Below, piece after piece: positions 12,789 through 33,801 of a stretch of 37,264 nucleotides of DNA. The stretch's first letter is position 1, and each line of letters starts with the position of its first letter. Source of the DNA: Oscillospiraceae bacterium. GTDB lineage: Bacteria > Bacillota > Clostridia > Oscillospirales > SIG530. The notes under the pieces were generated by a model. That model was not told the DNA's origin and made no database searches. It saw only the letters and a program-made list of their open reading frames with translations. A program made the translations under genes and the position numbers. The DNA lies in assembly GCA_015067075.1 (NCBI GenBank), contig SVND01000024.1, positions 1 to 37,264 of the forward strand. The letters run 5' to 3'.

Positions 12789-14183
12789 ATGAAGAAAAGT
12801 TTTTGGATAATATTGCTTGCTGTATTGGTGGCGGTAATGCTTGCCTGCTGCGGCACAAATGAAGCCGCGGAAAGCACGCCTACTCCGCAGGATACGCCGA
12901 CTTCGGCGGTGGAAGCGGCGAATACACCCACTGATGCACCTACACCGACGGATATGCCTACAAATGAGCCGACACCCACAAATACGGCAACGCCTACACA
13001 GACGCCGCTTCCAATAGCGGAAAAAGGAGAAAATATATCTGATCAAATACAGCTGTTCTACGGTAGCACAGCTGTAAATGCCCAACTTCGCCTTATCGGA
13101 CCGCGAGCATACGTACAGATCGACGGCTTTGCGCTGGCTCTTGGAGGAGACGTGGCGCAATACGGAAATGAATATACCATAGAGCTTTTCGGTAAAAGTG
13201 AAAAGCTTGATATAACCAAAGGAGCAACGCACAAGGTATACTCTTTTGACGGTGAAAACTATATGTCCCTTTTTGATGCGGCGCAGATGTTTGACTTGGC
13301 TGTCGTATTCAACGAAAACGAAACGGTTTCTGTTTACAACAAGGAGATACCGAAATGGGAGGCTATGTCTTCTACGGGAAAGAAAAAGAGCTATCTGCGC
13401 CTTGAAGACATAAACGCTGACTACGGCGTTGGCGAAAGATATACTCATTTGGGACTTGAAAAGCTTCGCGTGCTTTGCGACTATCTTGAATGCACCACAG
13501 ATGCGTTCTATATTGCATGGATACCTCTTTATATGAATCCGCCTCTCGGCATTGAAAACGATATAAGCAGAAATTTCAATTTCTACAATGCTGATTTTGT
13601 TTACACACTCGACTACATGGTGAAAAGCGGCGGTCTTATGGGATTGCACGGACTTACCCATCAATGGAAGGATGAGGTCAGCGCTATAGGTGATGAATTT
13701 GGCAAGGATTGCGGACTTACGGATAAGCAGATAGTGGAAAGATTTAATGAGGCAAAGCGAATTTGTACCGATTTGGGATATGAATACACATTCTTTGAAT
13801 TTCCTCATTATACTGCCACAAATGCACAGATGGATCTTGCAGGAGAGCATTTTGATATAATTTATCAGCAGTATTATAAATTTGATAAGCCGGGTCAGAT
13901 AGAAACGAAAAAGATAAACGGCAAAACGGTATACTATGTACCGACACCTGCGGATTACGTTTATTCTGAATACGATCTGCAGGGCGTTTTGGGTCGTCTT
14001 GATGCACTTAAAGATTATCAGGAACGAAGTTTGTTTTTCCACCCGTCCCTTGATTACAGCAAGGTGGGAATAGCGACGGACGGCACGGTCAGAAGATATA
14101 CATATGACCTTACGAGAGGCATACTGTCCAATATTTGCAACAAGCTTTACGGTGATGGATACTGCTTCGGAGCGGTAAAGTAA
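12789..14183 (+). CDS. Lipoprotein with Cu-amine-oxidase-N-like domain and DUF2334 polysaccharide-deacetylase fold
   Basis: A 464-residue lipoprotein. The signal ends in the lipobox MLAC20. A Thr/Pro linker (about 28-72) follows. Residues about 85-190 resemble the copper-amine-oxidase N-terminal-type stalk domain found on Firmicute surface proteins. Residues 200-464 match the DUF2334 branch of the NodB deacetylase fold: YLRLEDINADYG carries the metal Asp, and GLMGLHGLTHQW gives the H-x3-H-type metal pair. Substrate unknown; a cell-wall or exopolysaccharide N-acetyl group is a fair guess. AAGGAGG 7 nt before the ATG is strong. It is 31 nt behind the zinc-ribbon gene, so it probably belongs to the sigma operon, which would fit an envelope-modification regulon. 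Confidence 0.85.
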   Translation: MKKSFWIILLAVLVAVMLACCGTNEAAESTPTPQDTPTSAVEAANTPTDAPTPTDMPTNEPTPTNTATPTQTPLPIAEKGENISDQIQLFYGSTAVNAQLRLIGPRAYVQIDGFALALGGDVAQYGNEYTIELFGKSEKLDITKGATHKVYSFDGENYMSLFDAAQMFDLAVVFNENETVSVYNKEIPKWEAMSSTGKKKSYLRLEDINADYGVGERYTHLGLEKLRVLCDYLECTTDAFYIAWIPLYMNPPLGIENDISRNFNFYNADFVYTLDYMVKSGGLMGLHGLTHQWKDEVSAIGDEFGKDCGLTDKQIVERFNEAKRICTDLGYEYTFFEFPHYTATNAQMDLAGEHFDIIYQQYYKFDKPGQIETKKINGKTVYYVPTPADYVYSEYDLQGVLGRLDALKDYQERSLFFHPSLDYSKVGIATDGTVRRYTYDLTRGILSNICNKLYGDGYCFGAVK

Positions 14184-14515: not shown

Positions 14516-14548
14516 AAAAAGCACATCTGCTTTTGCAGATGTGCTTTT
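14516..14548. terminator. Bidirectional terminator between the SpoVM-like gene and the Gfo operon
   Basis: AAAAAGCACATCTGC, a TTTT loop, GCAGATGTGCTTTT: a 14-bp perfect stem with T runs on both strands. It closes the plus operon after the stop at 14515 and the minus operon after the stop at 14561. Confidence 0.9.
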
Positions 14549-14560
14549 AGTTTTAAAAGA

Positions 14561-15790
14561 TTATTCGATGCCCCAATCCTTTTTAGCTGCGGCAATATCT
14601 GCTTCCGTGGGTGCGAAAGGTTTTGAGCTGCAAGGCAAGGTAACGTTTCCGTTTTCATCGGGGAAGGGAGAGGCGTTGTCATTTTCGTATTTTACGCGGT
14701 CTTCTTCCTTGCTGAAATCGGGAATATCGTAGGGCTTGCCGCCTTCAAGAATACTGCGCCAGCCGAGAATAGCTGCGGAAGCCATAGCCGTTGCACGGTA
14801 TACGTTCCAATAGGGCTGCTGGTTTTTGCGGATAGATTCAAAGAAATTATGGATAACCCAGAAGTCGCCACCGCCGTGACCTGCTTTTTCAGCAAGCTCA
14901 CCAAGGTCTTTCCACTCAGCTTTATATATCTGGCTTGTGGGCGTATCCTCTTCGGGCTTGCTCCAATGATTGTAGCAAAGGCGAACGCTTCCCTCATCAC
15001 CGCGGACGACTTCGGCAGAGCCCTTTACGCAGGAAAGGCGATACCAATTTCCGTGAGGTGCAAAGCCTGCACAGCCTGTAACACGCATTATGGCATCCTT
15101 ATCTGTTTGAAGGAGCATGATAGCTGCGGAGTCGCCTGTGCGGATTGCTGTGCCGGGAAGAAGGTCGGGGTTGAATGCGGCCATAGCCGTAACTCTTGTG
15201 GGCATGGCGTCCGTCATCTGCATCAAGGGTGCAAGAGCGTGGGTGATGTAATAGGAGCGCGGAATCCAATTGCGCCAATGGTAGATGCCGGGGGCGAGGC
15301 CGTTTTTCTCCTTGGGAGAAACGGGATGGACGTATTCACCTTCAGCGTAGCAAAGGTTGCCGAGCGTGCCGCCCTTGTAAAGGCGTTCAAGCTCAAGGTT
15401 TGCGCACATGAAGGGATAGTTTTCAGCCAGCATATAGATAGCATCGGACTTTTCAACGGCTCGGCAAAGAGCAACACCGTCAGCCATCGTTCCGTTAGCC
15501 GTGCATTCGCTTAAAACGTGAATACCTTTTTCAAGGCAACGGATGGCGAAGGGAGCGTGCTCGTAGAAATAGTTGGAGAGCAAAACTGCCTCAAGTCCTT
15601 CGTGCTCAATAAAAGCGTCGAAATTGTCATAGCAGGTGATGTCGGGAATGGATTCCTTCCAGGAGTTGCGAGCACCTTCGTACTTGTCGCACATTGCAAC
15701 AATCTCGCCGCCGCAATTCTGGATGATCTTAATGAAGCTTGCGCCTCTTCCACTTCCACCGAATACACCGAGTTTGATTTTCTTTTCCAT
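14561..15790 (-). CDS. Atypical Gfo/Idh/MocA-family protein, paralogue A (GH109-like features)
   Basis: A 409-residue protein with an N-terminal NAD(P)-binding Rossmann fold (GVFGGSGRGASF, 8-19; acidic residue after strand 2 in MCDKYEGA) and the Gfo C-terminal domain. The family's EKP motif, whose Lys is catalytic in the dehydrogenases, reads SEC here (S94-E95-C96). The region AENYPF, GGTLGNLCYAEGEYVHP, YHWRNWIPRSYYITHALAPL parallels the order ENxxY, GxxGE, EGxYxH, W, THxxxP of GH109 NAD-dependent alpha-N-acetylgalactosaminidases. It may therefore be a hydrolase using a redox cycle instead of a simple dehydrogenase. No signal peptide. GGAGG precedes the ATG. It is last in the six-gene operon and is clearly paralogous to the gene at 16963-18207. 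Confidence 0.85.
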   Translation of the reverse strand: MEKKIKLGVFGGSGRGASFIKIIQNCGGEIVAMCDKYEGARNSWKESIPDITCYDNFDAFIEHEGLEAVLLSNYFYEHAPFAIRCLEKGIHVLSECTANGTMADGVALCRAVEKSDAIYMLAENYPFMCANLELERLYKGGTLGNLCYAEGEYVHPVSPKEKNGLAPGIYHWRNWIPRSYYITHALAPLMQMTDAMPTRVTAMAAFNPDLLPGTAIRTGDSAAIMLLQTDKDAIMRVTGCAGFAPHGNWYRLSCVKGSAEVVRGDEGSVRLCYNHWSKPEEDTPTSQIYKAEWKDLGELAEKAGHGGGDFWVIHNFFESIRKNQQPYWNVYRATAMASAAILGWRSILEGGKPYDIPDFSKEEDRVKYENDNASPFPDENGNVTLPCSSKPFAPTEADIAAAKKDWGIE

Positions 15791-15815
15791 TATACTTTAC
15801 CTCCGTGAGATATAA

Positions 15816-16856
15816 TTACTTCTCTAATCCGAGAAGCTTAGCTGCGTTATTATAAAATACGTCTGCTACTTGTTCTTTTGTAAGATTGCATTGCTGTGCC
15901 GCGCGCTTGAATGCGAGGATCTCTTCGTACATGAAGAATGTAAGATTGTCAGCCTCTTCGCCTTCGATCTCGCGCATATGGGAGTCGCCCGAAACGTCGC
16001 CGTAAGCACCTTTTTTGATAAGGTTGATATACTTGCCGTCTTCACAGATGCGCTTTGTTCTCAAACGCAATATAGGCATATCGCTTCCGAACATGATGCG
16101 GTCTGTTCCTACAGCTTCAATAAGCTTTATCATAGCTGTGTCAAGGCAGTTGGCGGAGAAATCAAACAGAAGGTTTTTGCTCTTTGAAAGAACCTCGAAA
16201 GCATCGCCAAAGTCGGACTCGCAGTAAGCTCTGCCGATGTGGGCAACGATGAGCTTGAGGTTGGGATACTTTTCATCGATCTCCATAAGCTGAGCAAGAT
16301 TTACCTTGTCCTTGAGTCTGCCGCTTCTGGGAATGTGGCACATAACTATCCAGCCGTGCTTATCCATAAGAGCGAGATGTTCGGGGGTGATGTAGTCGTA
16401 AATGCGTATTTCATTTGCGGGAATATATGAGGGAACATGATCGAGATAAGCCTTTATACCGTAAAAACCGCCTTCGATGATCTGCTTTTCAAGATATTCC
16501 GCTGACATTTCCGGATGGCTGTAGTAAAGAGCGGGAAAACCGGACTTTTTTGATGACTCGGAAACGTATGCGTTTTCTTTTTCAAAATTATCCTCAGGTC
16601 TTATGCTTGAAAACATGAGAGCCTTAACGTCCTTGTCGGGGAACATGAGCCTGTATGTTTCCTGAAGGTCCTCAATGGAATTATCCTTTGCAACGACGTT
16701 CGTCCAGCCGACGATACGTTCGTTGGCGATGCGGCTTCCTTCTACTTCGCGCTTATACACATGGCAATGTATATCTATCATTTTTTGGGGCAGAAAGTCA
16801 CGAAGCTCCTGCTCGTACACTATTCTGTCCACATCTCTGATTTCAAATAAACTCAT
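15816..16856 (-). CDS. Amidohydrolase-2 family metal-dependent hydrolase (lactonase/decarboxylase type)
   Basis: A 346-residue TIM-barrel amidohydrolase. Metal and active-site residues visible are H-x-H in MIDIHCHVY (near 30), His in MCHIPRSGR (near 172), His in VAHIGRAY (near 206) and Asp in MFGSDMPIL (near 255). In sugar operons this family often holds sugar-acid lactonases, the natural next step after a Gfo dehydrogenase, but decarboxylases share the fold, so the reaction is open. It lies 25 nt upstream of paralogue A and downstream of a large hairpin (16882-16936). A three-codon frame ATG-AAA-AAA-TGA overlaps its start codon and takes the best-placed AAAGG ribosome site, so translation may be coupled or restarted. 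Confidence 0.88.
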   Translation of the reverse strand: MSLFEIRDVDRIVYEQELRDFLPQKMIDIHCHVYKREVEGSRIANERIVGWTNVVAKDNSIEDLQETYRLMFPDKDVKALMFSSIRPEDNFEKENAYVSESSKKSGFPALYYSHPEMSAEYLEKQIIEGGFYGIKAYLDHVPSYIPANEIRIYDYITPEHLALMDKHGWIVMCHIPRSGRLKDKVNLAQLMEIDEKYPNLKLIVAHIGRAYCESDFGDAFEVLSKSKNLLFDFSANCLDTAMIKLIEAVGTDRIMFGSDMPILRLRTKRICEDGKYINLIKKGAYGDVSGDSHMREIEGEEADNLTFFMYEEILAFKRAAQQCNLTKEQVADVFYNNAAKLLGLEK

Positions 16857-16881
16857 TTTTTCATTATACCTTTCGTAAAAA

Positions 16882-16936
16882 GAGGTAAAGCAAACAAACC
16901 TATATCAAAAACGATATAAATTGAATGCTTTACCTC
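16882..16936 (-). terminator. Long imperfect stem-loop with T run inside the sugar operon (partial terminator or processing site)
   Basis: Outer arms TGCTTTACCTC (16926-16936) and GAGGTAAAGCA (16882-16892) pair over 11 bp. An inner stem TATATC (16901-16906) with GATATA (16913-16918) gives a second helix. On the minus strand five T bases follow. The outer arm contains GGAGGTAAAG, which is also the ribosome site sequence before the paralogue A gene. It probably lowers read-through from the upstream genes into the amidohydrolase, or stabilises the upstream mRNA. Confidence 0.6.
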
Positions 16937-16962
16937 CGTTTCATTTATGTTTTATTGCTTAA

Positions 16963-18207
16963 TTATTGGAGAAGGAATTCCGCGTTTTTCCAAGCTTCGT
17001 CTGCGCTTGCAAGGTCTTCTTCAGTCGGAGCATAGGGATTGGAGCAGCAGGGGATGTTTACATGGTAATTTTCGTCGGGATAGCAAGTGATAAAGTCTTT
17101 TTCATACTTGAGTTTATCCTCTTCCTTGCGGAAGTCGGGAATATCATAAGCCGTATTGCCGTTGAGAACGCTTCTCCAGCCGAGAATGGCAACGGATGCC
17201 ATAGCTGTTGCGCGGTATACGTTGAAGTAAGGTTCGGTCTTGTTTTCAAGGCACTTGATGAAATCGTAAACTACCCAGAAGTCGCCGCCGCCGTGTCCTG
17301 CAGTGTCAGCAATCTTGCCGAGCTCTTCATCGGGCCAGGAAAGGTCGTATTCCGTTACGTTGTTTTCAACGCCTTCGGGACGACACCAATCATTGTAAAT
17401 AAGGCGCATTCTGTTGTTGCTGTGGTTTGTTTCCATGCCGCCCTTTGTGCAGCAAAGCTTGTACCAATTTCCGTGAGGAGCATAGCCTGCCCAGCCGATA
17501 ACGCGCAAAACAGCGTTTGTGTCTGTCTGGCACATGATAACGCAAGCGGCGTCGCCTGTCTGAAGAGCAGTACCCTTAGCGATTTCGGGAGCAAAGGAAG
17601 CCATAGCCGTAACTCTCGTGGGCATAGCATCGGTCATCTTCATAAGAGGAGCGATAGCGTGTGTAAGATAATATGCGCGGGGAGTCCAGTTGCGCCAATG
17701 ACGTCTGCCGGGAGCGAGAGCGTTCTGTTCAGCCATGCTCATGGGGTGAGAATACTCACCTTCGGCGTAAACGAGCTTGCCAAGTGTGCCTTCTCTGAAA
17801 ACGCGTTCCATTTCAAGGTTTTCCTTGAAATACGGATAGTTTTCCAAAAGTGCATATGTCATACCTGTTTTTTCAACAGCGCGGCAAAGTCTGACACCGT
17901 CACCCATAGTTACGTTGGATGTGCATTCACTTAAAACGTGCTTGCCGTTTTCCATAGCCTTGATAGCAAAATCGCAATGCTCGTTGAAATAGTTTGCGAG
18001 CAAAACTGCGTCCATATCGTGCTTGATAAACTCGTCAAAGTTATCGTAAACAGCGGCGTCTGCAATCTCGGGGAACTTGTCCTTTACCCAAACGGGTGCG
18101 CTGGGACGGCGGTCGCAAATAGCGACTACTTCGCCGCCGGAAGCAAGAATGCTTTTAACGAATGTGTGACCTCTGCCGAGACCGAAAATACCGATTTTAA
18201 TTGCCAT
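16963..18207 (-). CDS. Atypical Gfo/Idh/MocA-family protein, paralogue B (GH109-like features)
   Basis: A 414-residue paralogue of the 14561-15790 protein, similar along its full length. The Rossmann glycine motif is GIFGLGRGHTF (6-16). EKP is again replaced by SEC (S93-E94-C95). LLENYPYFKENLEMERVF, GTLGKLVYAEGEYSHP, RHWRNWTPRAYYLTHAIAPL and GHGGGDFWVVYDF are shared with paralogue A. Two copies keeping the same unusual motif point to selection for a non-standard reaction. They may split substrates (for example two anomers or two sugars) or form a heteromer. AAAGGAG lies before the ATG. The gap of 70 nt to the gene upstream holds no clear promoter. Cytoplasmic. Confidence 0.85.
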   Translation of the reverse strand: MAIKIGIFGLGRGHTFVKSILASGGEVVAICDRRPSAPVWVKDKFPEIADAAVYDNFDEFIKHDMDAVLLANYFNEHCDFAIKAMENGKHVLSECTSNVTMGDGVRLCRAVEKTGMTYALLENYPYFKENLEMERVFREGTLGKLVYAEGEYSHPMSMAEQNALAPGRRHWRNWTPRAYYLTHAIAPLMKMTDAMPTRVTAMASFAPEIAKGTALQTGDAACVIMCQTDTNAVLRVIGWAGYAPHGNWYKLCCTKGGMETNHSNNRMRLIYNDWCRPEGVENNVTEYDLSWPDEELGKIADTAGHGGGDFWVVYDFIKCLENKTEPYFNVYRATAMASVAILGWRSVLNGNTAYDIPDFRKEEDKLKYEKDFITCYPDENYHVNIPCCSNPYAPTEEDLASADEAWKNAEFLLQ

Positions 18208-18277
18208 GATAAAAACTCCTTTGAAATGAATTTAAATTTATTTTAATGGTTTACCCAAATTGGATGCTGATTAGTGA

Positions 18278-19420
18278 TCATACCTCGCTGAGAGATACAG
18301 CACGCTTTTCATTGTGAGAAATAAGCGATGCGGTATGAAGGGCATGGGAGAAGCGCGTTTCCTCGGGAGTGAAGCAACCGAAATATACCTGCTTGCCTTC
18401 AAGCTCACACATAAACGATGCCCACATTTGCAAAATAGCGTCGGTGAAGCCGAATTCGAAAATATCGCCCGTAATGGTGGGGATCATGGGCTTTGTGCCA
18501 ATGACAACGCTGGACCAAGCCTGATTTTTACCTTCGGAGAAAAGGTAATGGAAGGTGTTGGGTGTATTTGTGGAGAACTTAACGGAAGCGTTAAGTCCCG
18601 TTACCTCGATGTACCAATCGTTTGTGGCGGAAGGTGCCATACGCTTCGTTTCAAGGTACATAGCAAATTCGTTGCCGTCCTTGTCCTCGCAAGTGCAGAT
18701 CATTGTACCGTTATCGTATGTATCGCAAACAGCCATACCGCCCTTTCCGTCGGGACGCTCCTTAACGATGTCGGATAAAACTGCGTATACACGCTTGGGG
18801 ATCCAGCCCATGCGGAAAGGCACGTGCTGGGTGTGAATGCCAAGGTCGCCAAGGCAACCGTAAACGCCGTTCATTTTTACGGTGCGCTTCCAGTTGATGG
18901 GCTTTGTTATATCAAGGTCGCTGGCGTGATTAAAGCCTGCCTTGACCTCCAAAATTCTGCCGAGCTTGCCTGACTCTATCCAGCGGATAAGCTCCTGACA
19001 AGCGGGAAAATAGGGAAATTCGCTGGCACATCTTACGATAACGTCGGGATTTTCGTCGATGACCTTAAGAATTGCTTCGTTTGCCGCCTTATCAATGCCG
19101 AAGGGCTTTTCACCGAGAAGATGCTTTTTTGCACGAATAATATCGCAATATACCTGCTCGTGCATATTGTGGGGAAGCGCGCAGTAAACGGCTTCAACCT
19201 CGGGCATTGCAAGGATCTCGTGATAATCGCTCGTTTCAAATTTTACCGTCGGGAAATTGTCGACGAACCATTTGCGTGCATCAGCACTGATATCGCATAC
19301 GGCAACTATCTCGGGTCGGGCGATATCCTCTTTAAGATGACACCATCTTGCGGATGCGGAGGCGAATTCTCTGCCCATAAGACCGCAACCGATTATGGCA
19401 AATTTAACTGTTTTCTTCAT
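18278..19420 (-). CDS. Gfo/Idh/MocA-family NAD(P)-dependent sugar dehydrogenase (canonical)
   Basis: A 380-residue protein with GCGLMG (11-16) for NAD(P) binding, the intact EKP motif in GEKPFG (E104-K105-P106), and GCLGDLGIHTQHVP near 195-208 carrying the Asp and His of the active site. These are the marks of a working sugar or cyclitol dehydrogenase, unlike its two operon neighbours. It starts 2 nt after the deacetylase stop and its AAAGGAG ribosome site lies inside the deacetylase gene, so the two are translationally coupled. A product lactone or keto-sugar could feed the amidohydrolase or the aminotransferase of this operon (inference). Confidence 0.92.
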   Translation of the reverse strand: MKKTVKFAIIGCGLMGREFASASARWCHLKEDIARPEIVAVCDISADARKWFVDNFPTVKFETSDYHEILAMPEVEAVYCALPHNMHEQVYCDIIRAKKHLLGEKPFGIDKAANEAILKVIDENPDVIVRCASEFPYFPACQELIRWIESGKLGRILEVKAGFNHASDLDITKPINWKRTVKMNGVYGCLGDLGIHTQHVPFRMGWIPKRVYAVLSDIVKERPDGKGGMAVCDTYDNGTMICTCEDKDGNEFAMYLETKRMAPSATNDWYIEVTGLNASVKFSTNTPNTFHYLFSEGKNQAWSSVVIGTKPMIPTITGDIFEFGFTDAILQMWASFMCELEGKQVYFGCFTPEETRFSHALHTASLISHNEKRAVSLSEV

Positions 19421-19422
19421 AA

Positions 19423-20250
19423 TTATTCTCCTTTAACTACGGCTTTTTCACCGGGCATAAGCTTGATGTTTTCACCGTTTGCGACAAACCAAACGGTTTT
19501 ATCCGTAGGATTAGTGATTTCATTTCTGTTTATTTCAAGAGCTTCAAAGGCCTTTACAGCTTCGTATATTTCCATATTCGTTGCCATCCAGACCTGGTCC
19601 TTGGCATCGGAAATCGCCTTGAAAAGATCTTCGGCAACATACCAATTGTTGTGGTAATCGAACTCGTTGGCGTGGCCCCATACATAGAAATGGAACGGGT
19701 CGCCCACGGGAGTTTCCTTTACAAAACGTTCCGTAAGCGCAGGTAATCCGTCATAATTGTGATGGCAGGTTGAAGGGAGGCGAAGCCAATCCTTCGGTAA
19801 AGAAAAGTCGTGAGTTGCATCACAGGTTCTGGAATAAAGGATGCCGCATTTTTTTGCAATTTCGATGACTTGCTCGCTGTATGTGCCGTAGGGGTATGCC
19901 ATACCTCTTACACGGACACCGAAAACCTCTTCAAGGGCGCGGATATCCTCCGCTATTTCGTATTCAACGTCTGCAGGCTCAAGCTTTTCAAGAAAAGGAT
20001 GAGTTACGCCGTGAACAGCTATCTCAAAGCAACCGCTTTCATCGCAAAGAGCTTGTCTTGCTTGCTCCTTTGTGAAAAACTCGCCCGCATCTCTTCTTGG
20101 CGGAAAGTAGCCTGAATTGAGATTGAATGTGCCGCGGATACCGTATTTTTTCATAAGCTTTGAAAAAGGTATGACGGGATGTCTGTTGTCATCGTAGCTT
20201 ACGGTAAAGGTTTTTGCCTTGAAGTTTTCAAAACGCAAATAAAGCTCCAT
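19423..20250 (-). CDS. NodB-type polysaccharide/carbohydrate deacetylase
   Basis: A 275-residue metal-dependent deacetylase. Motif 1 is SYDDN (D20-D21; family TFDDG), motif 2 is HGVTHP (H-x3-H near 80-84), motif 3 is RGMAYPYGTYS (near 114), and WGHANEFD (near 192) supplies the late His. There is no signal peptide, unusual for cell-wall deacetylases, so a small intracellular N-acetylated sugar or oligosaccharide is a more likely substrate than peptidoglycan. It sits between the aminotransferase and the dehydrogenase; removing an acetyl group before acting on the amine would be a logical order (inference). AAAGGAG lies 8 nt before the ATG. Confidence 0.92.
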   Translation of the reverse strand: MELYLRFENFKAKTFTVSYDDNRHPVIPFSKLMKKYGIRGTFNLNSGYFPPRRDAGEFFTKEQARQALCDESGCFEIAVHGVTHPFLEKLEPADVEYEIAEDIRALEEVFGVRVRGMAYPYGTYSEQVIEIAKKCGILYSRTCDATHDFSLPKDWLRLPSTCHHNYDGLPALTERFVKETPVGDPFHFYVWGHANEFDYHNNWYVAEDLFKAISDAKDQVWMATNMEIYEAVKAFEALEINRNEITNPTDKTVWFVANGENIKLMPGEKAVVKGE

Positions 20251-20278
20251 ATTTATTCTCCTTTGTTACATTAGAGAT

Positions 20279-21838
20279 CTACTTTTTTGCTGCAGTCATT
20301 TCCGTAAAAACAAGCTCCATCTTTCCGACGAGAGAGTCGATGAGCGCTTTGGAAGCGATGAGGGGAAGCTTGAGGAGTGCGGCAGGGGGACAAAAAGCCT
20401 TGTAAAGCTGAGCACTTACGTCAAAGCCGTATGCGGAAAGCTTCTTTACAAAAACGGAGGTCTCGTCGATATCATGGAATACGATGGCGCTGAGAAGTTC
20501 AAGCCCCTCAATGTCGCGGATGATATCGGAATACTTATCCTTGAGTGCTCGCACCTTGCTTTCGTAGTAATTGCCGACAGCAGTTATTTCAGCGCTGTTT
20601 TGCTCTGAAAATTCCATAGTGATAAGGTAAGATAAAGAAGCAAGCTCTTCCTGACCGTTTGTAACGAGAGCGCCAAACTGATTGAGCGTATCCATTTCCG
20701 CTGTAAGAAGGATCTTGGAAGCGGGATACTGACCGCCCGGGAAGCCCTTGCCGACGACAACGAAGTCGGGGTTGAGTCCGTACTTGCGGAAAAGAAACAT
20801 ACCTTCGTACCACATACAGGACTGTATCTCGTCGCACATAACGGGGGTGTCACCTGCATGGCAGATCTCATATGCTTCGTGAAGAAATTCTGGAGTAAGT
20901 CTTATTCCGCCGTAATTCATAAGGATTATTTCGTGAGTAAAGCCTGCTACCTTATATTCGCCCTGATTGTACTTTTCGTATTTGGTGCGGAAGTCGTCAA
21001 TGTCGTTGATTGCAACGGGAACTACCTTGTAAGCACCTGCGCTTTCGTATTTGCCGTAAAGCTCGGGCCACATATCGCGGAGCGTCTGAGCAAAGGTCGT
21101 TGTTCCGTGATAGTTTGCAAGTCTGCCGTTGTCGTAGTCACCCATAATGAAAAATACGGGGATGCGACCGCTGTACTTCGGAGTGGGGAATGTCTTGTCA
21201 AGCTTATAGAACTTGGAAAGCATCATCTTAAAGCCTGCCTCACAAGCCAAAGAGCCTGTTTCAAGGTTGATAACGCGGTTGAGAACGTGCTTTTCCGTGC
21301 TCTTGAGAATAGCGTCGAGCTTTTCTGTTTCATCCTTTTTAAGACCGTTTGCACAGCGGACAAGCTCGCGCTCGCAAAGACGTGTTATGTATCCGCGAGT
21401 ATTATTGTGCGTTGCGTTGGAAATACCGAGCGCGCGGGCATTGTCGATGAGGCGGTAGCCGGGAAAGGCGTGACCCATGGGAACGTGGTAATGCTCGGAT
21501 TTTGTCACGGCGTAAAGACGGCCGTCCTGACCGACACGGTACCAACCGAAGCCGAAAACAGGGCTTGATTCGGGATGGTAAGCGGCGGCAAAGGAATTTG
21601 TGGGCGCGCCGTGGACGTTTGTTTCAAAAGCAGGAGCTATCTGTGTGCCAATTTTATCAACCATTTCGTCGAGTCTTGCGGCGAAGGGGGCAGGGTAAAA
21701 AGCTACCTGCTCGTCAGCCAAAGCGGAAAGGTCTTCTTTGTTGCCGTAACCTACTATAGCCGCGGCGTTTACGGCGGCATCTGTATATTCCTTGCCGAGA
21801 ATGTCTCTTAACGACATGGAAATGTTTGTTTTCATCAT
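20279..21838 (-). CDS. Class III PLP-dependent aminotransferase
   Basis: A 519-residue class III (omega/GSA-type) aminotransferase. The cofactor Asp is in VMCDEIQSCM (about 335) and the Schiff-base Lys in VVVGKGFPGG (about 363), followed by the Thr/Asn-containing FGALVTNGQEE. The protein is 60-100 residues longer than usual because of an N-terminal region and an insertion around residues 200-270. Substrate unknown; in this setting an amino sugar or keto-sugar is possible, but most members act on amino acids, diamines or GSA. It is the first gene of the six-gene minus operon, just behind the sigma-A promoter at 21882-21910. AAAGGGG precedes a double ATG, so the start could be one codon later. 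Confidence 0.9.
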   Translation of the reverse strand: MMKTNISMSLRDILGKEYTDAAVNAAAIVGYGNKEDLSALADEQVAFYPAPFAARLDEMVDKIGTQIAPAFETNVHGAPTNSFAAAYHPESSPVFGFGWYRVGQDGRLYAVTKSEHYHVPMGHAFPGYRLIDNARALGISNATHNNTRGYITRLCERELVRCANGLKKDETEKLDAILKSTEKHVLNRVINLETGSLACEAGFKMMLSKFYKLDKTFPTPKYSGRIPVFFIMGDYDNGRLANYHGTTTFAQTLRDMWPELYGKYESAGAYKVVPVAINDIDDFRTKYEKYNQGEYKVAGFTHEIILMNYGGIRLTPEFLHEAYEICHAGDTPVMCDEIQSCMWYEGMFLFRKYGLNPDFVVVGKGFPGGQYPASKILLTAEMDTLNQFGALVTNGQEELASLSYLITMEFSEQNSAEITAVGNYYESKVRALKDKYSDIIRDIEGLELLSAIVFHDIDETSVFVKKLSAYGFDVSAQLYKAFCPPAALLKLPLIASKALIDSLVGKMELVFTEMTAAKK

Positions 21839-21881
21839 TTAAGTAATACCCCTTTTTTAGTATTGATTTTCTAACAAGAAC

Positions 21882-21910
21882 ATTTTACATCGTTTTATTC
21901 AATTTGTCAA
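21882..21910 (-). promoter_or_regulatory. Sigma-A promoter of the aminotransferase-Gfo operon
   Basis: TTGACA (21905-21910) and TAAAAT (21882-21887) on the minus strand with a 17-nt spacer, 44 nt before the ATG. Confidence 0.8.
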
Positions 21911-21923
21911 TAGGTAATTGAAT
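21897..21923. promoter_or_regulatory. Candidate operator: inverted repeat over the operon's -35 box
   Basis: ATTCAATT (21897-21904) and AATTGAAT (21916-21923) are perfect inverted 8-mers with 11 nt between them; the spacer begins with the -35 hexamer. Position suggests repression of the minus operon, most simply by the adjacent DeoR protein. Confidence 0.55.
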
Positions 21924-21982
21924 GTTTTTTTCAAAAAAATAAAAGAATATGTCATGAAAAAATAAGTTTTTTAGAAAAAAAC

Positions 21983-22011
21983 TTGACAAGCGGCCAAAAA
22001 TAATGTATAGT
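21983..22011 (+). promoter_or_regulatory. Sigma-A promoter of the DeoR-DUF951 genes
   Basis: TTGACA (21983-21988) and TATAGT (22006-22011), spacer 17 nt, 39 nt before the TTG start. It runs away from the operon promoter, about 70 nt apart. Confidence 0.8.
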
Positions 22012-22050
22012 ATTATAAATAGTAAAAATTGACGGAAAGGGGCTACTGAA

Positions 22051-22848
22051 TTGGGTAAGCACGCAGAAAGAGAAGAAGCTATTTTATCTGTATTAAGATG
22101 TAGATCGCAAATAACCACATTCGAGGCGATAGACCTTTTAAATGTTTCGGAGTCTACAGCGAGAAGATTGTTCAATGATCTCGTTGAAAAGGGAAAGGCG
22201 ATACGTCAGTATGGCGGAATTCGTCTTGCACAAAACAGCGCGTATGAATATTCCTTCGAAAGACTCATGGATGAAAATGCTGAAGAAAAACAGGCTATAG
22301 CTAACAAGGCTGTCGAATTTATCAGCGACCATGATATTATTTTCTTTGATTCGGGTACAACTGTATACAGACTTTGCCTTGCTTTGGCTGAAAAGATAAA
22401 AAGCGGCGCGCTGAGCGATATTACCGTGTTCACAAACTCCTCCTCAAATCTTCAGCCCCTGGCTGAAGTGTGCGAGGTCACGCTTGTCGGCGGTAAGTAC
22501 AGACCGAAGAGAATGGACTTTGCAGGATTTTCCGCAAATAAGTTTATCTCCAACTTTAATTTCACAAAAGCGTTTTTAGGTACTGACGCTGTAAACATAG
22601 CAGACGGATTTATGACTACCGATACGGATACGGCTATGACAACGGAGCTTGTAATTGAGCGCTCGGATACGATAATCGTGCTGGCTGATGCAGGAAAGAT
22701 CGGAAGACGTTCCTTTATGAGCTATGCTAAGCCCCAGGATATTGACGTGCTTGTTACGAGCATGGGCGCAGATATGCAGGTAGTGGAAAAGCTTCGTAAA
22801 ACAGGCACGAAGGTATTGACTGTAAATCCGAAAATAACGGAAAGATAA
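22051..22848 (+). CDS. DeoR-family sugar-responsive transcriptional repressor
   Basis: A 265-residue regulator. The N-terminal winged helix-turn-helix spans about 20-58 (FEAIDLLNVSESTARRLFND, then GKAIRQYGG). The DeoRC sugar-phosphate sensor domain follows, with FFDSGTTVYRL (about 99-109), VFTNSSSNL, VTLVGGKYRP, FLGTDAVNIADGFMTTD and VLADAGKIGRRSF. Members usually bind DNA until a phosphorylated sugar of the pathway they control loosens them. It starts with TTG at 22051, 8 nt after AAAGGGG. It is divergent from the aminotransferase-Gfo operon, which makes that operon, and perhaps the isomerase-EamA-GH110 genes behind it, the likely regulon. Confidence 0.95.
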   Translation: MGKHAEREEAILSVLRCRSQITTFEAIDLLNVSESTARRLFNDLVEKGKAIRQYGGIRLAQNSAYEYSFERLMDENAEEKQAIANKAVEFISDHDIIFFDSGTTVYRLCLALAEKIKSGALSDITVFTNSSSNLQPLAEVCEVTLVGGKYRPKRMDFAGFSANKFISNFNFTKAFLGTDAVNIADGFMTTDTDTAMTTELVIERSDTIIVLADAGKIGRRSFMSYAKPQDIDVLVTSMGADMQVVEKLRKTGTKVLTVNPKITER

Positions 22849-22855
22849 GGCTGTT

Positions 22856-23044
22856 ATGGATATAGCCGTCGGAGATATACTGATAATGAAAAAAAAGCAC
22901 CCTTGCGGAAGCGATAAAATGACGGTGTTGCGGATAGGGATGGATTTTCGCCTTAAATGCAACGGTTGCGGTCATGAATTTATGGTCGTCCGCTCAAAGG
23001 CGGAGCATTCCGTAAAGCATGTGCTGAAAAAAGAAGAGATATAA
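22856..23044 (+). CDS. DUF951 family protein
   Basis: A 62-residue protein with the DUF951 pattern: GDILIMKKKHPCGSDKM at the start, then RLKCNGCGHEFMVVRS. Cys17, Cys35 and Cys38 could bind a metal, probably together with a further ligand. Widespread in Firmicutes, function unknown. It begins 8 nt after the DeoR stop and shares its transcript; in other genomes DUF951 genes sit near housekeeping loci, so the link to the sugar genes may be chance. Confidence 0.9.
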   Translation: MDIAVGDILIMKKKHPCGSDKMTVLRIGMDFRLKCNGCGHEFMVVRSKAEHSVKHVLKKEEI

Positions 23045-23047
23045 AGG

Positions 23048-23076
23048 TTCGGCATGATTTCTCATGCCGAATTTTT
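23048..23076 (+). terminator. Terminator of the DeoR-DUF951 transcript
   Basis: A 10-bp perfect stem TTCGGCATGA with TCATGCCGAA, 4-nt loop, followed by TTTTT. Confidence 0.92.
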
Positions 23077-23116
23077 ATGTTTTAATGAAAAAATTTCGAA
23101 AAAAGCAAAAAACTGC

Positions 23117-23145
23117 TTGAAGAAAAAACGAAATTAGTATATAAT
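23117..23145 (+). promoter_or_regulatory. Promoter of the isomerase-EamA-GH110 operon
   Basis: TTGAAG (23117-23122) and TATAAT (23140-23145), spacer 17 nt, 40 nt before the ATG at 23186. Confidence 0.7.
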
Positions 23146-23185
23146 ATGAGAAAAAATATTAAAATGCGGAAAGAGGTATATTATT

Positions 23186-23965
23186 ATGGCACTTCCTGTT
23201 GCATTACAGCTTTTCTCTGTAAGAGATGATATGGCTAAGGATTATAAAGCAACGCTTAAGGCTGTTGCTGAAATGGGTTATCAGGGCGTTGAGCTTGCAG
23301 GTATTTTCGGCAACGCCGAAGAAATGAAGGCTGAACTTGACAAAAACGGTCTTGTAGCAATTTCAGCCCATGTAGGTATTGATGCTATCCTTAACGATAC
23401 GGAAAAAACTCTCGGTGCACACAAAACGATAGGATGCAAATATATCGCCATCCCTTATCTTGCTGACGAGGATCGTCCCGACGCTATTGGCTTTGACGGA
23501 ACGGCGGAGAAGGTATCGAAGGCTTGCAAGCTCATAAATGAGTATGGAATGATAGCTCTTTATCATAATCACGCTTTTGAATTTGACCTTATCGACGGCA
23601 AGCATTGGCTTGATACGATGTATGAATGTATTCCTGCGGACGTACTGCAGACGGAGCTTGACACGTGCTGGGTAAACGTAGGCGGAGAGGACCCTGCCGA
23701 GTACATATATAAGTATGCGGGAAGAGCACCTGTTTTGCATTTGAAGGATTTCGTACAAAAGGGAAGAAAGCTTGAAGATCCTGAGCTTGATTTTGCATTC
23801 CGTCCCTTCGGACACGGTGTTCAGGAGCATGAAAAGATTCTTGAAGCGGCTGAAAAGTGCGGCGTTGAATGGCTCGTTGTTGAACAGGACAGCCCGCAAA
23901 CAGGAAAAACTCCCATGGAATCTGTAAAGCTCAGCAGAGAATTTCTTAAAAAAGCAGGTTTCTAA
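23186..23965 (+). CDS. Sugar phosphate isomerase/epimerase-like TIM barrel protein
   Basis: A 259-residue AP-endonuclease-2-fold protein of the IolE/xylose-isomerase-like group. It starts LPVALQLFSVRDDM and has the barrel strands GYQGVELAG, ISAHVG, CKYIAIPYL. The metal-site residues include YHNHAFEF (near 127), QTELDTCWVN (Asp/Glu near 152), HLKDF (near 178) and a late Glu in LVVEQDS. It may isomerise or epimerise a keto-sugar or inositol-type compound, the product type that a Gfo dehydrogenase would make. AAAGAGG precedes the ATG. The stop abuts the EamA start (TAAATG), so the two are coupled. Confidence 0.9.
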   Translation: MALPVALQLFSVRDDMAKDYKATLKAVAEMGYQGVELAGIFGNAEEMKAELDKNGLVAISAHVGIDAILNDTEKTLGAHKTIGCKYIAIPYLADEDRPDAIGFDGTAEKVSKACKLINEYGMIALYHNHAFEFDLIDGKHWLDTMYECIPADVLQTELDTCWVNVGGEDPAEYIYKYAGRAPVLHLKDFVQKGRKLEDPELDFAFRPFGHGVQEHEKILEAAEKCGVEWLVVEQDSPQTGKTPMESVKLSREFLKKAGF

Positions 23966-24871
23966 ATGAACAAAAAGCAACTTACGGCAAATCTGCTTTT
24001 GCTGATAACCGCTTTTATATGGGGTGTTGCCTTTGTTTCACAGCGTGTTGGATCGGAATATCTCGGAGCGTTTACCTTTAACGGTGTTCGTTTTGCGTTG
24101 GGCTGTGTGGCTCTTTTGCCGCTGTATCTTGCGCTTAACGTGAAAAAAGATGTGAAGTATACGCCGAAGAAGATAAGAAACGATATAAAGGGCGGTATTA
24201 TTTGCGGCACCGTCATGTTTATCGCAAGCTCACTTCAGCAGATCGGCGTTACATACACAACGGCAGGAAAAGCAGGATTTATAACCGGACTTTACGTAGC
24301 ACTCGTACCTGTTTTTGCGCTGATATTTTTGAGAAAAAAATCCCCCGCAACTATTTGGATAGGAATGGTCTTTGCAGCAATAGGCTTATATCTGCTTTGC
24401 GTTGAAGAGGGCTTTTCCATCGCAATGGGCGATATAATCGTGTTCATCGGCTCATTTTTCTGGGCGGGACATATTCTCGTCATAGACAAATTTGCAAACG
24501 AGGTTGACGCCATAGAGCTGAGCATAATCCAGTTTGCCACTTGCGGAATACTCAGCTTGATCGTGGCTTTGATATTTGAGCCTATCACGGCAAAGGGCGT
24601 TACACAGGCGGCTGTTCCCATACTTTACGGCGGCGTTTGCTCCGTTGGTATAGCGTACACCCTTCAGGTTATCGGTCAGAAACACGCAAAACCAGCTCAT
24701 GCGGCAATTATATTGAGCCTTGAATCTGTTTTCAGCGTTCTGGCAGGCGTTGTGATACTCCATGAAAAGCTTGCTCCGAGGGGAATAATCGGATGCGTTT
24801 GCATTTTTGCGGCGCTTATAATATCTCAGACGGATTTCAGCAAAATGTTAAAACGAAAAAAAGCGCAGTAA
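23966..24871 (+). CDS. EamA/DMT-family membrane transporter
   Basis: A 301-residue protein with about ten hydrophobic segments in two EamA repeats. The first repeat starts NLLLLITAFIWGVAFVSQRV and the second near VFIGSFFWAGHILVIDKFA. Drug/metabolite transporters of this type move small metabolites or amino acids, most often outward; nucleotide-sugar and sugar transport also occur in the superfamily. It starts directly at the isomerase stop with no spacing and only a weak GCAGG site, typical of coupled translation, and lies 15 nt before the GH110 gene. Its cargo is unknown; it could import a small glycoside or export an end product of the pathway. Confidence 0.93.
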   Translation: MNKKQLTANLLLLITAFIWGVAFVSQRVGSEYLGAFTFNGVRFALGCVALLPLYLALNVKKDVKYTPKKIRNDIKGGIICGTVMFIASSLQQIGVTYTTAGKAGFITGLYVALVPVFALIFLRKKSPATIWIGMVFAAIGLYLLCVEEGFSIAMGDIIVFIGSFFWAGHILVIDKFANEVDAIELSIIQFATCGILSLIVALIFEPITAKGVTQAAVPILYGGVCSVGIAYTLQVIGQKHAKPAHAAIILSLESVFSVLAGVVILHEKLAPRGIIGCVCIFAALIISQTDFSKMLKRKKAQ

Positions 24872-24886
24872 AGAAAGGTGCTTATT

Positions 24887-26611
24887 ATGAAAATCGTAAA
24901 TATATTGGATTTTGAATCGCATAAGGTTGGAGATGATTGGACTCCTGCCGTGACTGCAGCTCTTGAGAGTATTTCAAAGGATGAAGAGGCTACGCTGTTT
25001 TTCCCGAAAGCCGAATATACTTTTTATCCCGACAAAGCAAAGATATGCGAAGTTCATCCGACACATAACGGTCAAGGTCCCCGAAGCGTTATTTTTGACC
25101 TTGAGCATAGAAAGAATTTCACTCTTGATGCAAACGGAAGTGACTTTCTGTTTGTCGGTCAAGCGTATCCGTTTTGGTGTTATGAGTGCGAAAATCTTAC
25201 GTTAAAAGGGTTTTCCGAAGATTTTGACAGAATGTTTCTTACTCAAGCAACTGTTACAGAGTCAAATCAAGAATACTTTGACGTCGAAATTGACAAAGAA
25301 AAATATCCGTATAAAATAGAGGACAATGCACTTTATTTTTACTCTGATTATTGGTGCGAGGGCGGACCTGACATGGTTCATTTCCTCACGGAATTTGATC
25401 CGAAGACAGGTAGTGTAGCATACGACAGTGCATACTTTTTCCTTTCCGCCAATGCGGATCCGTCACAGATAGACAGACAGCTTCTTTTGAAAAAGCTTGA
25501 GCCGTTAACGGATAATTCCTTCCGCTTATACGTCAATAATCCGAAGCCACCGCGCAAGGGAAATGTGGTTGTCTTTTTGCACGCGCACCGTTCGCCGGTA
25601 GGTGCATATATTGAAAAATGTACGGACGTAACCGTCGAAGATATGTATCTTTACCATTGCGGCGGCATGGGCATTGTATGTGACAATTGCAAAAATATCA
25701 AGCTCAATCGTGTAAACGTAATTCCGAAACCCAACAGCGGTCGTTTGATTTCAATAAATGCCGATGCGACGCATTTTACACATTGTGAAGGCTATATTCG
25801 CATAACTGATTGTGTTTTTGAAGGCATGATTGACGATGCAATTAATATTCACGGATTTTATACCGTTATTGACAGCATTGCCGATGAGCATACTGTGTAT
25901 GCAACGTATTATCCCAGCGCTCATGAATGTATTTGCGACGGGGATAAGCTTGCCGTTATCGACAGAGATACGATGCAAACCGTTGCATATGTTACGGTAA
26001 AACATGTTCACAGTGAAAATACACCTGAATTTTTCATGGGAGTTCAGCCGAAAGCGTCAATTCATAACGGACCTAAGGTCAAGCTTGTTTTTGAAGAGCC
26101 TATTTCCGAAGCTGTTCGAGAAGAAATGGTATTTCAAAATCTGACTAAAGACCCTACCGAAGTGTATGTTGGCAATATCAAAACGGGAAAAAATCGCCCA
26201 CGCGGTATTCTTATTTCCACAGCGGCACACACAGTAATTGAAAATTGCGAATTTTATAATTCGGAAGCGGCAATAGACTTTACCTGCGATGCGAAATATT
26301 GGTTTGAAAGTACTGCTGCGGCAGATGTTACTATTCGAAATAACCGTTTTGTTGACTGTGCCCACGCATCTTTCTGCGGCGTAATTCGTTCGTGCCCTTT
26401 AATTCCGAAGGGAAATACTGTTTTTCATAAGGGTATAAAGATTTACGATAATGTTTTTGAGTCTTTTTCACCCCTTATGCTTGAAATGAATCACGCCGAG
26501 TTTGATTTCCACGACAACACGTATATAAAGAAAACCGATGTGTATAAGGAAATTGAAAGGCCGCACATAATCGCAACGTATTGTGACATGAAATGTAACG
26601 GTGTAAAGTGA
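24887..26611 (+). CDS. GH110-type alpha-galactosidase (right-handed beta-helix), apparently intracellular
   Basis: A 574-residue parallel beta-helix protein. NADATHFTHCEGYI and FEGMIDDAINIHG match the most conserved part of GH110, exo-alpha-1,3-galactosidases that remove the blood-group B galactose. D293, D316 and D317 have the same spacing (23 and 1) as the catalytic Asp trio reported for a Pseudoalteromonas GH110 (321, 344, 345). Repeating coils such as CTDVTVEDMYLYHCGGMGIV and TVIENCEFYNSEAAID follow the beta-helix pattern. There is no signal peptide, while characterised GH110s are usually exported, so this copy should work on imported oligosaccharide. AAAGG lies before the ATG at 24887; a GTG at 24878 is inside the ribosome site. 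It ends the operon begun by the isomerase and EamA genes. Confidence 0.85.
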   Translation: MKIVNILDFESHKVGDDWTPAVTAALESISKDEEATLFFPKAEYTFYPDKAKICEVHPTHNGQGPRSVIFDLEHRKNFTLDANGSDFLFVGQAYPFWCYECENLTLKGFSEDFDRMFLTQATVTESNQEYFDVEIDKEKYPYKIEDNALYFYSDYWCEGGPDMVHFLTEFDPKTGSVAYDSAYFFLSANADPSQIDRQLLLKKLEPLTDNSFRLYVNNPKPPRKGNVVVFLHAHRSPVGAYIEKCTDVTVEDMYLYHCGGMGIVCDNCKNIKLNRVNVIPKPNSGRLISINADATHFTHCEGYIRITDCVFEGMIDDAINIHGFYTVIDSIADEHTVYATYYPSAHECICDGDKLAVIDRDTMQTVAYVTVKHVHSENTPEFFMGVQPKASIHNGPKVKLVFEEPISEAVREEMVFQNLTKDPTEVYVGNIKTGKNRPRGILISTAAHTVIENCEFYNSEAAIDFTCDAKYWFESTAAADVTIRNNRFVDCAHASFCGVIRSCPLIPKGNTVFHKGIKIYDNVFESFSPLMLEMNHAEFDFHDNTYIKKTDVYKEIERPHIIATYCDMKCNGVK

Positions 26612-26650
26612 TTTAAAAGTGATTTTGAAGCAAAATACTAAGTACATGAG

Positions 26651-26679
26651 AAAGAGCTCGGTTTAGCACCGAGCTCTTT
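26651..26679. terminator. Bidirectional terminator between GH110 and the convergent lipoprotein gene
   Basis: A 12-bp perfect stem AAAGAGCTCGGT with ACCGAGCTCTTT, 5-nt loop, T run on the plus strand and A-rich start giving T bases on the minus strand. Confidence 0.92.
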
Positions 26680-26690
26680 TTGCTGTTTTA

Positions 26691-32487: not shown

Positions 32488-33621
32488 TTACGGCTTTTTA
32501 TAAATGGTGTTTCCCTTGCTGAACGTTTCACAAATGTTAAATTCTTCATCGGCAATGATAATATCAGCGTCCTTGCCTACCTCAAGAGAGCCGATGCGGT
32601 GCTGTTCGTCTATGGCGCAGGCGGGGTTAAGGCTTGCGGCGTTGACGATCTCCCAAAGGGGAAGATCAGTATGATGCATGACGTTGCGCACGGCGCGGTC
32701 AAGCGTTAAAACGCTTCCGGCGATAGTACCGTTTTCCAAACAGCATTTGATACCCTTGAGGAAAACAGGAAAGCCTCCGCTTTCGTATTCACCGTCGGGC
32801 ATACCTGCGGCACGGATGGAATCGGTTATCAAAACGGTCTTATCTTTTTTTGCGCGGAAAACAGTTTTGAAAAGGGCGGGGTGAACGTGGAACGTATCGG
32901 CAATAAGCTCACAGTATGCGCTGTCGCATTCGAGTGCCGCGCCGACTGCACCGGGATCGCGGTGGGAAAGAGGCGACATGGCGTTGAAAAGGTGGGTAAC
33001 GTGTGTTGCACCTGCATTAAAGCCTTGCATCATAATGTCGTAGTTTGCATCGGTATGGCCTAAAGCGACCCTTATACCGACGGCGGTGACATCGCGTATA
33101 AACTGCTCTGCGCCGTCAAGCTCAGGCGCTAACGTGACTAGCTTGACAATATCTTTGTTGCGAATGATAAAATCGCTATCCGGGGTAATAAGCAGGCTTT
33201 CAACGTGGGCACCGCGCTTTTTTGCGCTCAAAAACGGACCTTCGACGTTTACACCGAGTATATGCGCGCCTTTTCCGCTTACTTGCGCCTTTTTTGCCGC
33301 GTCGAGGGCGTTTTGTACTTTGGGCAAGGGAAACGTTATGGTCGTTGGAAGCCAGCTTGTAACGCCCTTTGAGGCGAGATAAACTGCCATCTGTGTAAGC
33401 TCGTCGGAGTCGCCGTCACAGCAATCTTTGCCAAGACAGCCGTGAAAATGAACGTCGATAAGTCCTGGAGCGACGTATTTACCGCTTGCATCTATAACTT
33501 CGCAGTCGGAGGGAGCGTCTTTGCTGTCGACTATCTGCAGGATCTTTTTGTCGAACAAAAGCGATGCTCCGTCCAGGATTTTATCCTTTAAAATTATTCG
33601 TCCGTTTTTTATGCATTTCAT
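32488..33621 (-). CDS. nagA: N-acetylglucosamine-6-phosphate deacetylase
   Basis: A 377-residue cytosolic amidohydrolase that turns GlcNAc-6-P into GlcN-6-P and acetate. Visible motifs: metal pair H58-x-H60 in DVHFHG, EGPFLS (near 122), GHTDANYD (near 190), THLFNAMSPLSHRDPG (near 210), and the catalytic Asp in LITDSIRAAGMPDG (near 268). The frame is open up to 33771, but those 50 residues are hydrophobic noise from the AT-rich leader. The ATG at 33621 has GGAAG 7 nt upstream and gives the normal family start. The promoter is at 33661-33689. It stands alone; nagB is not in the window. It links the strain to amino-sugar use, as the deacetylase/aminotransferase operon also may. Confidence 0.95.
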   Translation of the reverse strand: MKCIKNGRIILKDKILDGASLLFDKKILQIVDSKDAPSDCEVIDASGKYVAPGLIDVHFHGCLGKDCCDGDSDELTQMAVYLASKGVTSWLPTTITFPLPKVQNALDAAKKAQVSGKGAHILGVNVEGPFLSAKKRGAHVESLLITPDSDFIIRNKDIVKLVTLAPELDGAEQFIRDVTAVGIRVALGHTDANYDIMMQGFNAGATHVTHLFNAMSPLSHRDPGAVGAALECDSAYCELIADTFHVHPALFKTVFRAKKDKTVLITDSIRAAGMPDGEYESGGFPVFLKGIKCCLENGTIAGSVLTLDRAVRNVMHHTDLPLWEIVNAASLNPACAIDEQHRIGSLEVGKDADIIIADEEFNICETFSKGNTIYKKP

Positions 33622-33660
33622 AAAACAACTTCCAATCATTATAATTAATATTACTTTGCT

Positions 33661-33689
33661 ATTATATAACAAGCCGCAAAAATATGCAA
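33661..33689 (-). promoter_or_regulatory. Promoter of nagA
   Basis: TTGCAT (33684-33689) and TATAAT (33661-33666) on the minus strand, 17-nt spacer, 40 nt before the ATG at 33621. Confidence 0.65.
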
Positions 33690-33801
33690 GAGCAATCGTG
33701 CGAAAAACAAAAATTACGACAAAAAAAGATAAATAAACGGCAAGTTTAGAACAATAAAATAAATAAATCATTAAAAATTATAAAAAAATGTCGGTTGATG
33801 C

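Follow-up and report, generated by a model that had tools for sequence, protein, structure and literature searches.

The DNA analyzed here (the window) is an entire contig of 37,264 nucleotides, SVND01000024.1, from an Oscillospiraceae bacterium (GCA_015067075.1; 2.26 Mb in 85 contigs, 96% complete). Positions 14561 to 26611 carry six minus-strand genes, a divergent gene for a DeoR-family regulator, and a plus-strand unit encoding an IolE-like protein, an EamA transporter, and a glycoside hydrolase family 110 (GH110) enzyme. These open reading frames (ORFs) had been listed in a preliminary description of the region, and their limits proved exact. We propose, with a probability of about one-half, that the operon formed by the minus-strand genes represents, in this genome, a widespread module for the catabolism of an amino-sugar glycoside. 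In the order of transcription, the operon encodes AMT (a putative amino-sugar transaminase), PDA (a NodB-type polysaccharide deacetylase), GfoC (a Gfo/Idh/MocA dehydrogenase), the GH109-like protein GfoB, AMH (an Amidohydro_2 metal enzyme), and the second GH109-like protein, GfoA. The preliminary description had treated the region as one carbohydrate island; it looks as though it joined a conserved operon to a seemingly unrelated GH110 unit.

Gene linkage around AMT

Six gene families were profiled across 295 genomes of the same order, with pair statistics computed over 294 of them (the genome of the window was excluded). AMT orthologues were present in 16 of the 295 genomes. For the resulting p-values, kinship was handled at the genus level only, where four of the pairs were repeated and gave p ≤1e-7. 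AMT shared 12 genomes with GfoC where 0.7 were expected (p = 6e-17) and 11 with AMH where 0.9 were expected (p = 1e-12). AMH and an AraA-like isomerase occurred together in 16 genomes (16/17; 1.0 expected; p = 3e-23), and this isomerase and the GH109-like proteins in 15 (3.2 expected; p = 2e-10). AMT was also associated with the AraA-like isomerase (p = 3e-9) and with the GH109-like proteins (p = 3e-4). The earlier proposal that the aminotransferase, dehydrogenase, and amidohydrolase belong together was thus borne out, with linkage across phyla.

Relatives of AMT were found in 261 stretches of a public genome collection, and we read 80 of these 261 loci for gene order. The loci come from Bacillota, Spirochaetes, Lentisphaerae, Chloroflexi, Verrucomicrobia, and others, with carriers such as Robinsoniella peoriensis (66% identity), Paenibacillus, Cohnella, and many gut Clostridia. 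The neighbors of AMT, mostly codirectional, were FGGY kinases (59 loci), AraA-like isomerases (38), AMH (35), GfoC (31), DeoR regulators (20), GH109-like Gfo proteins (about 20), alanine dehydrogenases (7), class II aldolases (7), and GH4 enzymes (5). The metal residues of the isomerase and the Asp of the kinase are invariant or nearly so among relatives. Antisense families that emerged from neighbor clustering (cluster 1 and others) resemble shadow ORFs of AMT and its neighbors and were set aside. A PDA homologue was found at none of the 80 loci. PDA is therefore an addition to the operon specific to this genome and not the conserved part it had been taken for. No closer relative was available to test conservation of the whole island, as the taxonomic family consists of this genome only.

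The best evidence that transamination and Gfo redox chemistry are coupled comes from loci in which GfoC has no adjacent AMT. In all five of those examined (G152, G163, G187, G253, and G268), another class III aminotransferase, 456 amino acids long and about 23% identical to AMT, lies beside GfoC, so that aminotransferases swap beside the same dehydrogenase. The GfoC-paired enzymes at L233, L234, L236, L239, and L240 are 83 to 93% identical to one another, possibly representing a second version of the deamination step. A second submodule is seen in genomes that have AMH but lack AMT: there, AMH adjoins the AraA-like isomerase (G042, G087, G116, G125, G140, and G233). An FGGY kinase is usually present as well, and a TIM-like protein or GH109-like Gfo protein often is. 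The TIM-like protein (about 234 amino acids; PRK04302 model) accompanies AMH, the isomerase, and the kinase at L226:8711-9415 and L231:12278-12988. Proteins of about 500 amino acids with a shared KIGWSE-type start also recur near FGGY or GfoC (L192:17269-18762, L236:1640-3253, and L238:1840-3324), and the one that was scanned had no Pfam or NCBIfam match.

Candidate activities of the operon enzymes

AMT is a divergent class III pyridoxal phosphate (PLP) enzyme whose PLP motifs (Lys364, D336, GS195-196, and YHG243-245) are all invariant or nearly so among relatives. Its AlphaFold2 model (pLDDT 89.7) matched class III enzymes in Foldseek (E = 1e-18); among the matches, class III transaminases are accompanied by a phospho-lyase and racemases. 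The class III fold hosts transamination, lyase, racemase, and mutase chemistry. AMT might accordingly be a PLP-dependent phospho-lyase or ammonia-lyase, comparable to ethanolamine-phosphate phospho-lyase or PbfA, whose substrate would be an amino polyol that the neighboring FGGY kinase has phosphorylated. This kinase is the commonest neighbor of AMT, and many loci hold only the two genes; the structural matches include the phosphoethanolamine phospho-lyase of humans (6tor), and PbfA matches AMT at 1.5e-13. However, acetylornithine, putrescine, and omega-amine transaminases score equally well or better against AMT, and some operons hold an alanine dehydrogenase. The pairing of GfoC with either AMT or an unrelated, ordinary class III aminotransferase also fits a transaminase/dehydrogenase couple, and we consider a lyase unlikely.

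The catalytic set of GfoC, comprising K105 (the Lys of the EKP motif) together with D192 and H196 (Asp-x3-His), is invariant (28/28), and its best match among solved structures is a scyllo-inositol dehydrogenase (3.5e-17). That match could point to catabolism of an aminocyclitol or inosamine, similar to a rhizopine, in which deacetylation and transamination would yield an inosose for GfoC and an IolE-like dehydratase. The IolE-like protein does match the inosose dehydratase model, at 48 bits against a cut-off of 290. Its gene, however, has homologues at 0 of the 80 AMT loci and lies on its own transcript, whereas the conserved AraA-like isomerase and FGGY kinase indicate an aldose or ketose. 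Lack of conservation of the IolE-like gene led us to reject inosamine catabolism as the main explanation, and we regard it as quite improbable.

GfoA and GfoB, which are 56% identical, both lack the dehydrogenase lysine (EC replaces EK), and the best PDB matches of GfoB are GH109 enzymes (6t2b, 1e-15; 2ixa, 4e-15). Catalysis in GH109 relies on a redox-base His, a C2-base Tyr, and an acid/base His (PMC10755693). The corresponding residues of GfoA are H305, Y153, and H184, which do not vary among the 14 family members compared. H305 aligns in both 6t2b and 2ixa with the His of the GHGG loop (His404 of AmGH109A), while Y153 and H184 correspond to the C2 general base Tyr179 and the acid/base His228 of EmGH109. 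All three residues are retained in both proteins, in agreement with their earlier description as GH109-like. With the Pfam GH109 C-terminal domain (cut-off, 27 bits), GfoB scored below the threshold and GfoA gave no match; we therefore filed both as GH109-like rather than GH109 and, from their sequences, consider them candidate GH109-like glycosidases. Since Paenibacillus AMT operons at L077 and L068 carry strict GH109 proteins (114 and 72 bits), the link between AMT and GH109 is real. Elsewhere in the genome of the window, a GfoA paralogue with 75% identity lies next to a sugar ATP-binding cassette (ABC) binding protein and a further GH109-like Gfo protein (L005; G000:C17:40000-54235); close by are what are probably a glycyl-radical enzyme and the corresponding activase.

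The metal ligands of AMH are complete and invariant or nearly so among relatives. Decarboxylases head its Foldseek matches, followed by PDC hydrolase (a pyrone lactonase) and the hydratase LigJ (TM about 0.55). The preliminary description had called AMH a lactonase; the label was dropped because structural support is lacking, and the genomic partner of AMH is an isomerase.

A proposed catabolic route

We propose that, after import of a glycoside, a GH109-like NAD-dependent glycosidase (GfoA or GfoB) would free the sugar inside the cell. In this genome, PDA could plausibly remove an N-acetyl group first, as an optional step. AMT would then transaminate the amino group away, and GfoC would reduce the keto group of the resulting keto sugar to an alcohol. 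The aldose so formed would pass through AMH and the AraA-like isomerase to become a ketose, the FGGY kinase would phosphorylate this ketose, and a class II aldolase would cleave the product. We infer the order of the steps, the directions of the GfoC and AMT reactions, and the substrate from the families, intact catalytic residues, linkage, and co-occurrence described above. No signal peptide is visible in the Gfo or GH110 proteins. The earlier proposal of an intracellular carbohydrate locus is supported. An amino sugar, as also proposed earlier, is a likely substrate. The route had further been called nonphosphorylated; the prevalence of FGGY kinases at AMT loci, and the class II aldolases at some, contradict this.

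A Gfo dehydrogenase and a transaminase are also a known biosynthetic pair: NtdC and NtdA make kanosamine. The operon could by analogy be biosynthetic, with GfoC oxidizing a sugar, AMT aminating it, and the amino sugar being exported, and an EamA transporter is indeed encoded nearby. In relatives, however, AMT is surrounded by glycosidases, ABC importers (a solute-binding protein in L066), isomerase, kinase, aldolase, and alanine dehydrogenase, which points to uptake and breakdown and makes synthesis very improbable.

Several observations weigh against a catabolic amino-sugar module. AMT is only 16 to 20% identical to its structural matches and is distant from every characterized transaminase; it may instead catalyze a lyase or mutase reaction, both of which occur within the class III fold. 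Alanine dehydrogenase, a clue to transamination onto pyruvate, occurs at only 7 of the 80 loci, and AMH is without an assigned reaction. In this assembly, the isomerase and kinase are unlinked to the AMT operon: the AraA-like homologue is on contig C41 (614 bits) and the closest FGGY kinase on C16 (527 bits), so their use in the pathway is deduced. Robinsoniella has AMT and GfoC with no AMH, isomerase, or kinase nearby, and the loci of many gut Clostridia consist of just AMT and FGGY next to ruvAB. In these, AMT immediately follows ruvA-ruvB and precedes the FGGY kinase (L075, L078, L086-L089, L091, L092, L094, L096, L099, L103, L106, and L113).

The operon probably serves an amino-sugar pathway that is not found in textbooks. 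More tentatively, and at rather less than even odds, we suggest an undescribed route in which PLP-dependent transamination is coupled to a Gfo dehydrogenase, with recycling by alanine dehydrogenase in some hosts, entry by a GH109- or GH4-type redox glycosidase, and completion by a novel amidohydrolase and an AraA-like isomerase, in several phyla from gut, soil, and sediment. A literature search found no description of this gene set, in keeping with the earlier statement that no such pathway had been described, nor of these families taking part in the breakdown of kanosamine or inosamines, nor of Firmicute loci with GH110 and GH109. If the route exists, many gut, rumen, and soil bacteria would use amino-sugar substrates that are absent from current pathway maps. 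It would also provide partners for orphan families, namely, the divergent class III PLP enzyme, the Amidohydro_2 clade, the AraA-like clade, and the GH109-like Gfo proteins. Cultured carriers (Paenibacillus species and Robinsoniella peoriensis) open the module to immediate testing.

Transcription units and the GH110 neighbor

The region comprises three transcription units around the DeoR gene, as had been proposed, and all three have their own promoter-like site and terminator-like hairpin (Table 1). Region-wide counts of promoters and terminators were not above those in shuffled sequences; the sites used here rank among the best scoring. DeoR most likely controls the AMT operon, because DeoR orthologues adjoin AMT in relatives, and it may act on the GH110 unit in trans. 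When the AMT-DeoR and DeoR-IolE gaps were searched for a common DeoR operator, with the intergenic regions of relatives compared as well, only AT-rich 70% repeats came up.

Table 1 Features of the AMT operon, the DeoR gene, and the GH110 unit, by window position
Feature	Position	Strand	Details
Terminator-like hairpin after GfoA	14517-14548	-	14 pairs
GfoA, second GH109-like protein	14561-15790	-	Gfo/Idh/MocA family; catalytic residues H305, Y153, and H184
AMH, Amidohydro_2 metal enzyme	15816-16856	-	80 bits
GfoB, GH109-like NAD-dependent glycosidase candidate	16963-18207	-	Gfo/Idh/MocA family; PF21252, 19.2 bits
GfoC, Gfo/Idh/MocA dehydrogenase	18278-19420	-	Catalytic set Lys105/Asp192/His196 intact
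PDA, NodB-type polysaccharide deacetylase	19423-20250	-	Polysacc_deac_1, 65.5 bits
AMT, putative amino-sugar transaminase (divergent class III PLP enzyme)	20279-21838	-	519 amino acids; Aminotran_3, 67 bits
Promoter-like site, AMT operon	21882-21910	-	TTGACA-17-TAAAAT
DeoR-family regulator, divergent from AMT operon	22051-22848	+	Orthologues near AMT in about 20/80 loci
Small DUF951 ORF after DeoR	22856-23044	+	88.6 bits
Hairpin with T-run between DeoR unit and IolE/GH110 unit	23048-23071	+
Promoter-like site, IolE-EamA-GH110 unit	23117-23145	+	TTGAAG-17-TATAAT
IolE-like protein (earlier "isomerase")	23186-23965	+	AP_endonuc_2; xylose-isomerase-type TIM barrel
EamA transporter (not named in the preliminary description)	23966-24871	+
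GH110 alpha-galactosidase-family enzyme	24878-26611	+	PF23763; 7jw4
Terminator-like hairpin after GH110	26649-26681	+	14 pairs

The GH110 protein aligns with PdGH110B (7jw4; E = 5e-61) over nearly its whole length (residues 5 to 561), its Asp297, Asp319, and Asp320 matching the catalytic Asp321, Asp344, and Asp345, and it scores 54.9 bits for the GLAA-B barrel domain (cut-off, 28). Because PdGH110B acts on carrageenan-type links, membership in GH110 alone leaves the substrate unfixed. Three more GH110 genes, two of them in tandem, lie elsewhere in the genome (C44:29901-33443 and C33:24498-26177; L188 and L189) and bring the total to four; these copies are 32 to 36% identical to that of the window.

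The preliminary description had placed all three units in one mucin or blood-group A/B pathway. In such a pathway, GH110 would take galactose from the B antigen and the Gfo proteins N-acetylgalactosamine (GalNAc) from the A antigen, after which deacetylation, transamination, and hydrolysis of a lactone would proceed with no phosphorylation. All of the families are present, GfoA and GfoB retain the GH109 residues, and GH110 and GH109-like proteins co-occur genome-wide (19 genomes versus 5.8 expected; p = 2e-8). The two genes are side by side in only one other compared genome (G015), however, and their co-occurrence therefore probably marks glycan-rich genomes. GH110 homologues are absent from all 80 AMT loci, as are those of the IolE-like protein, which had been counted as a conserved part, while EamA has a homologue at one. 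AMT and GH110 were not associated (3 of 15 AMT genomes versus 1.6 expected; p = 0.20), nor did GH110 pair with AMH (p = 0.11), the AraA-like isomerase (p = 0.09), or GfoC (p = 0.8). The separate terminator and promoter, the kinase and aldolase partners of AMT, and the three other GH110 genes likewise argue against one pathway, which we regard as distinctly unlikely. The genes for the IolE-like protein, EamA, and GH110 are outside the conserved module. Given the intervening hairpin, the unit's own promoter, and the failure to find a shared operator, the simplest interpretation is that the GH110 unit is, most likely, a separate and independent neighbor of the AMT operon. The neighborhood survey thus upheld the proposed island for the AMT unit, whose co-occurrence is far above chance, and not for the GH110 unit, which is at chance level and forms a separate unit. 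Automatic GH109 and GH110 labels alone are insufficient to call a blood-group locus.

Other genes in the window encode a lipoprotein with a DUF2334 domain adjoining the island (12789 to 14183; 112.6 bits) and a large exported protein (884 to 4516). The latter has a dockerin-like repeat region close to its start, and its carbohydrate-binding-like domain shares 45% identity with a protein encoded on C17. A NagA-like amidohydrolase (Amidohydro_1; 32488 to 33771), 6 kb from the island, may be an enzyme of the ordinary phosphorylated pathway for amino sugars.

Comparison with known systems

GfoA and GfoB share with the GH109 alpha-N-acetylgalactosaminidases (EmGH109, 2ixa; AmGH109A, 6t2b) the fold, an NAD domain without the dehydrogenase Lys, the catalytic Tyr and His, and the GHGG loop; they differ in falling below the Pfam C-terminal cut-off and in giving short, split alignments. 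Sulfoquinovosidase GH188 loci similarly use a Gfo-fold NAD-dependent glycosidase as the entry enzyme of a sugar catabolic cluster, but GH188 has a Glu at the position of the GH109 Tyr (PMC10755693), which GfoA and GfoB keep, and no sulfosugar genes were seen here. The NCBIfam models for the Bacteroides glycoside 3-dehydrogenases BT2158/BT2159 match GfoC and GfoB weakly (20 to 35 bits against cut-offs of 650 to 750), and these proteins are not closely related. The GH110 protein of the window resembles the GH110 alpha-1,3-galactosidases (PdGH110B and those of Bacteroides and Akkermansia) in its near-full-length homology and retained catalytic Asp residues, but it has no visible signal peptide, lies in an IolE-EamA unit, and is one of four in its genome.

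The later steps recall routes of the L-arabinose and L-fucose type, in which AraA-like isomerase, FGGY kinase, and aldolase families are clustered; the module isomerase, however, scores only 85 to 96 bits against the AraA cut-off of 622 and is tied to AMH, GfoC, and AMT. The canonical GalNAc pathway consists of AgaA, AgaS, LacC, and KbaY/GatY (reviewed in PMC12118421). Like it, the proposed module would end amino-sugar breakdown in phosphorylation of a ketose and a class II aldolase, but a class III PLP enzyme and a Gfo dehydrogenase would replace the phosphosugar deaminase/isomerase, together with an AraA-like isomerase and a XylB-like kinase.

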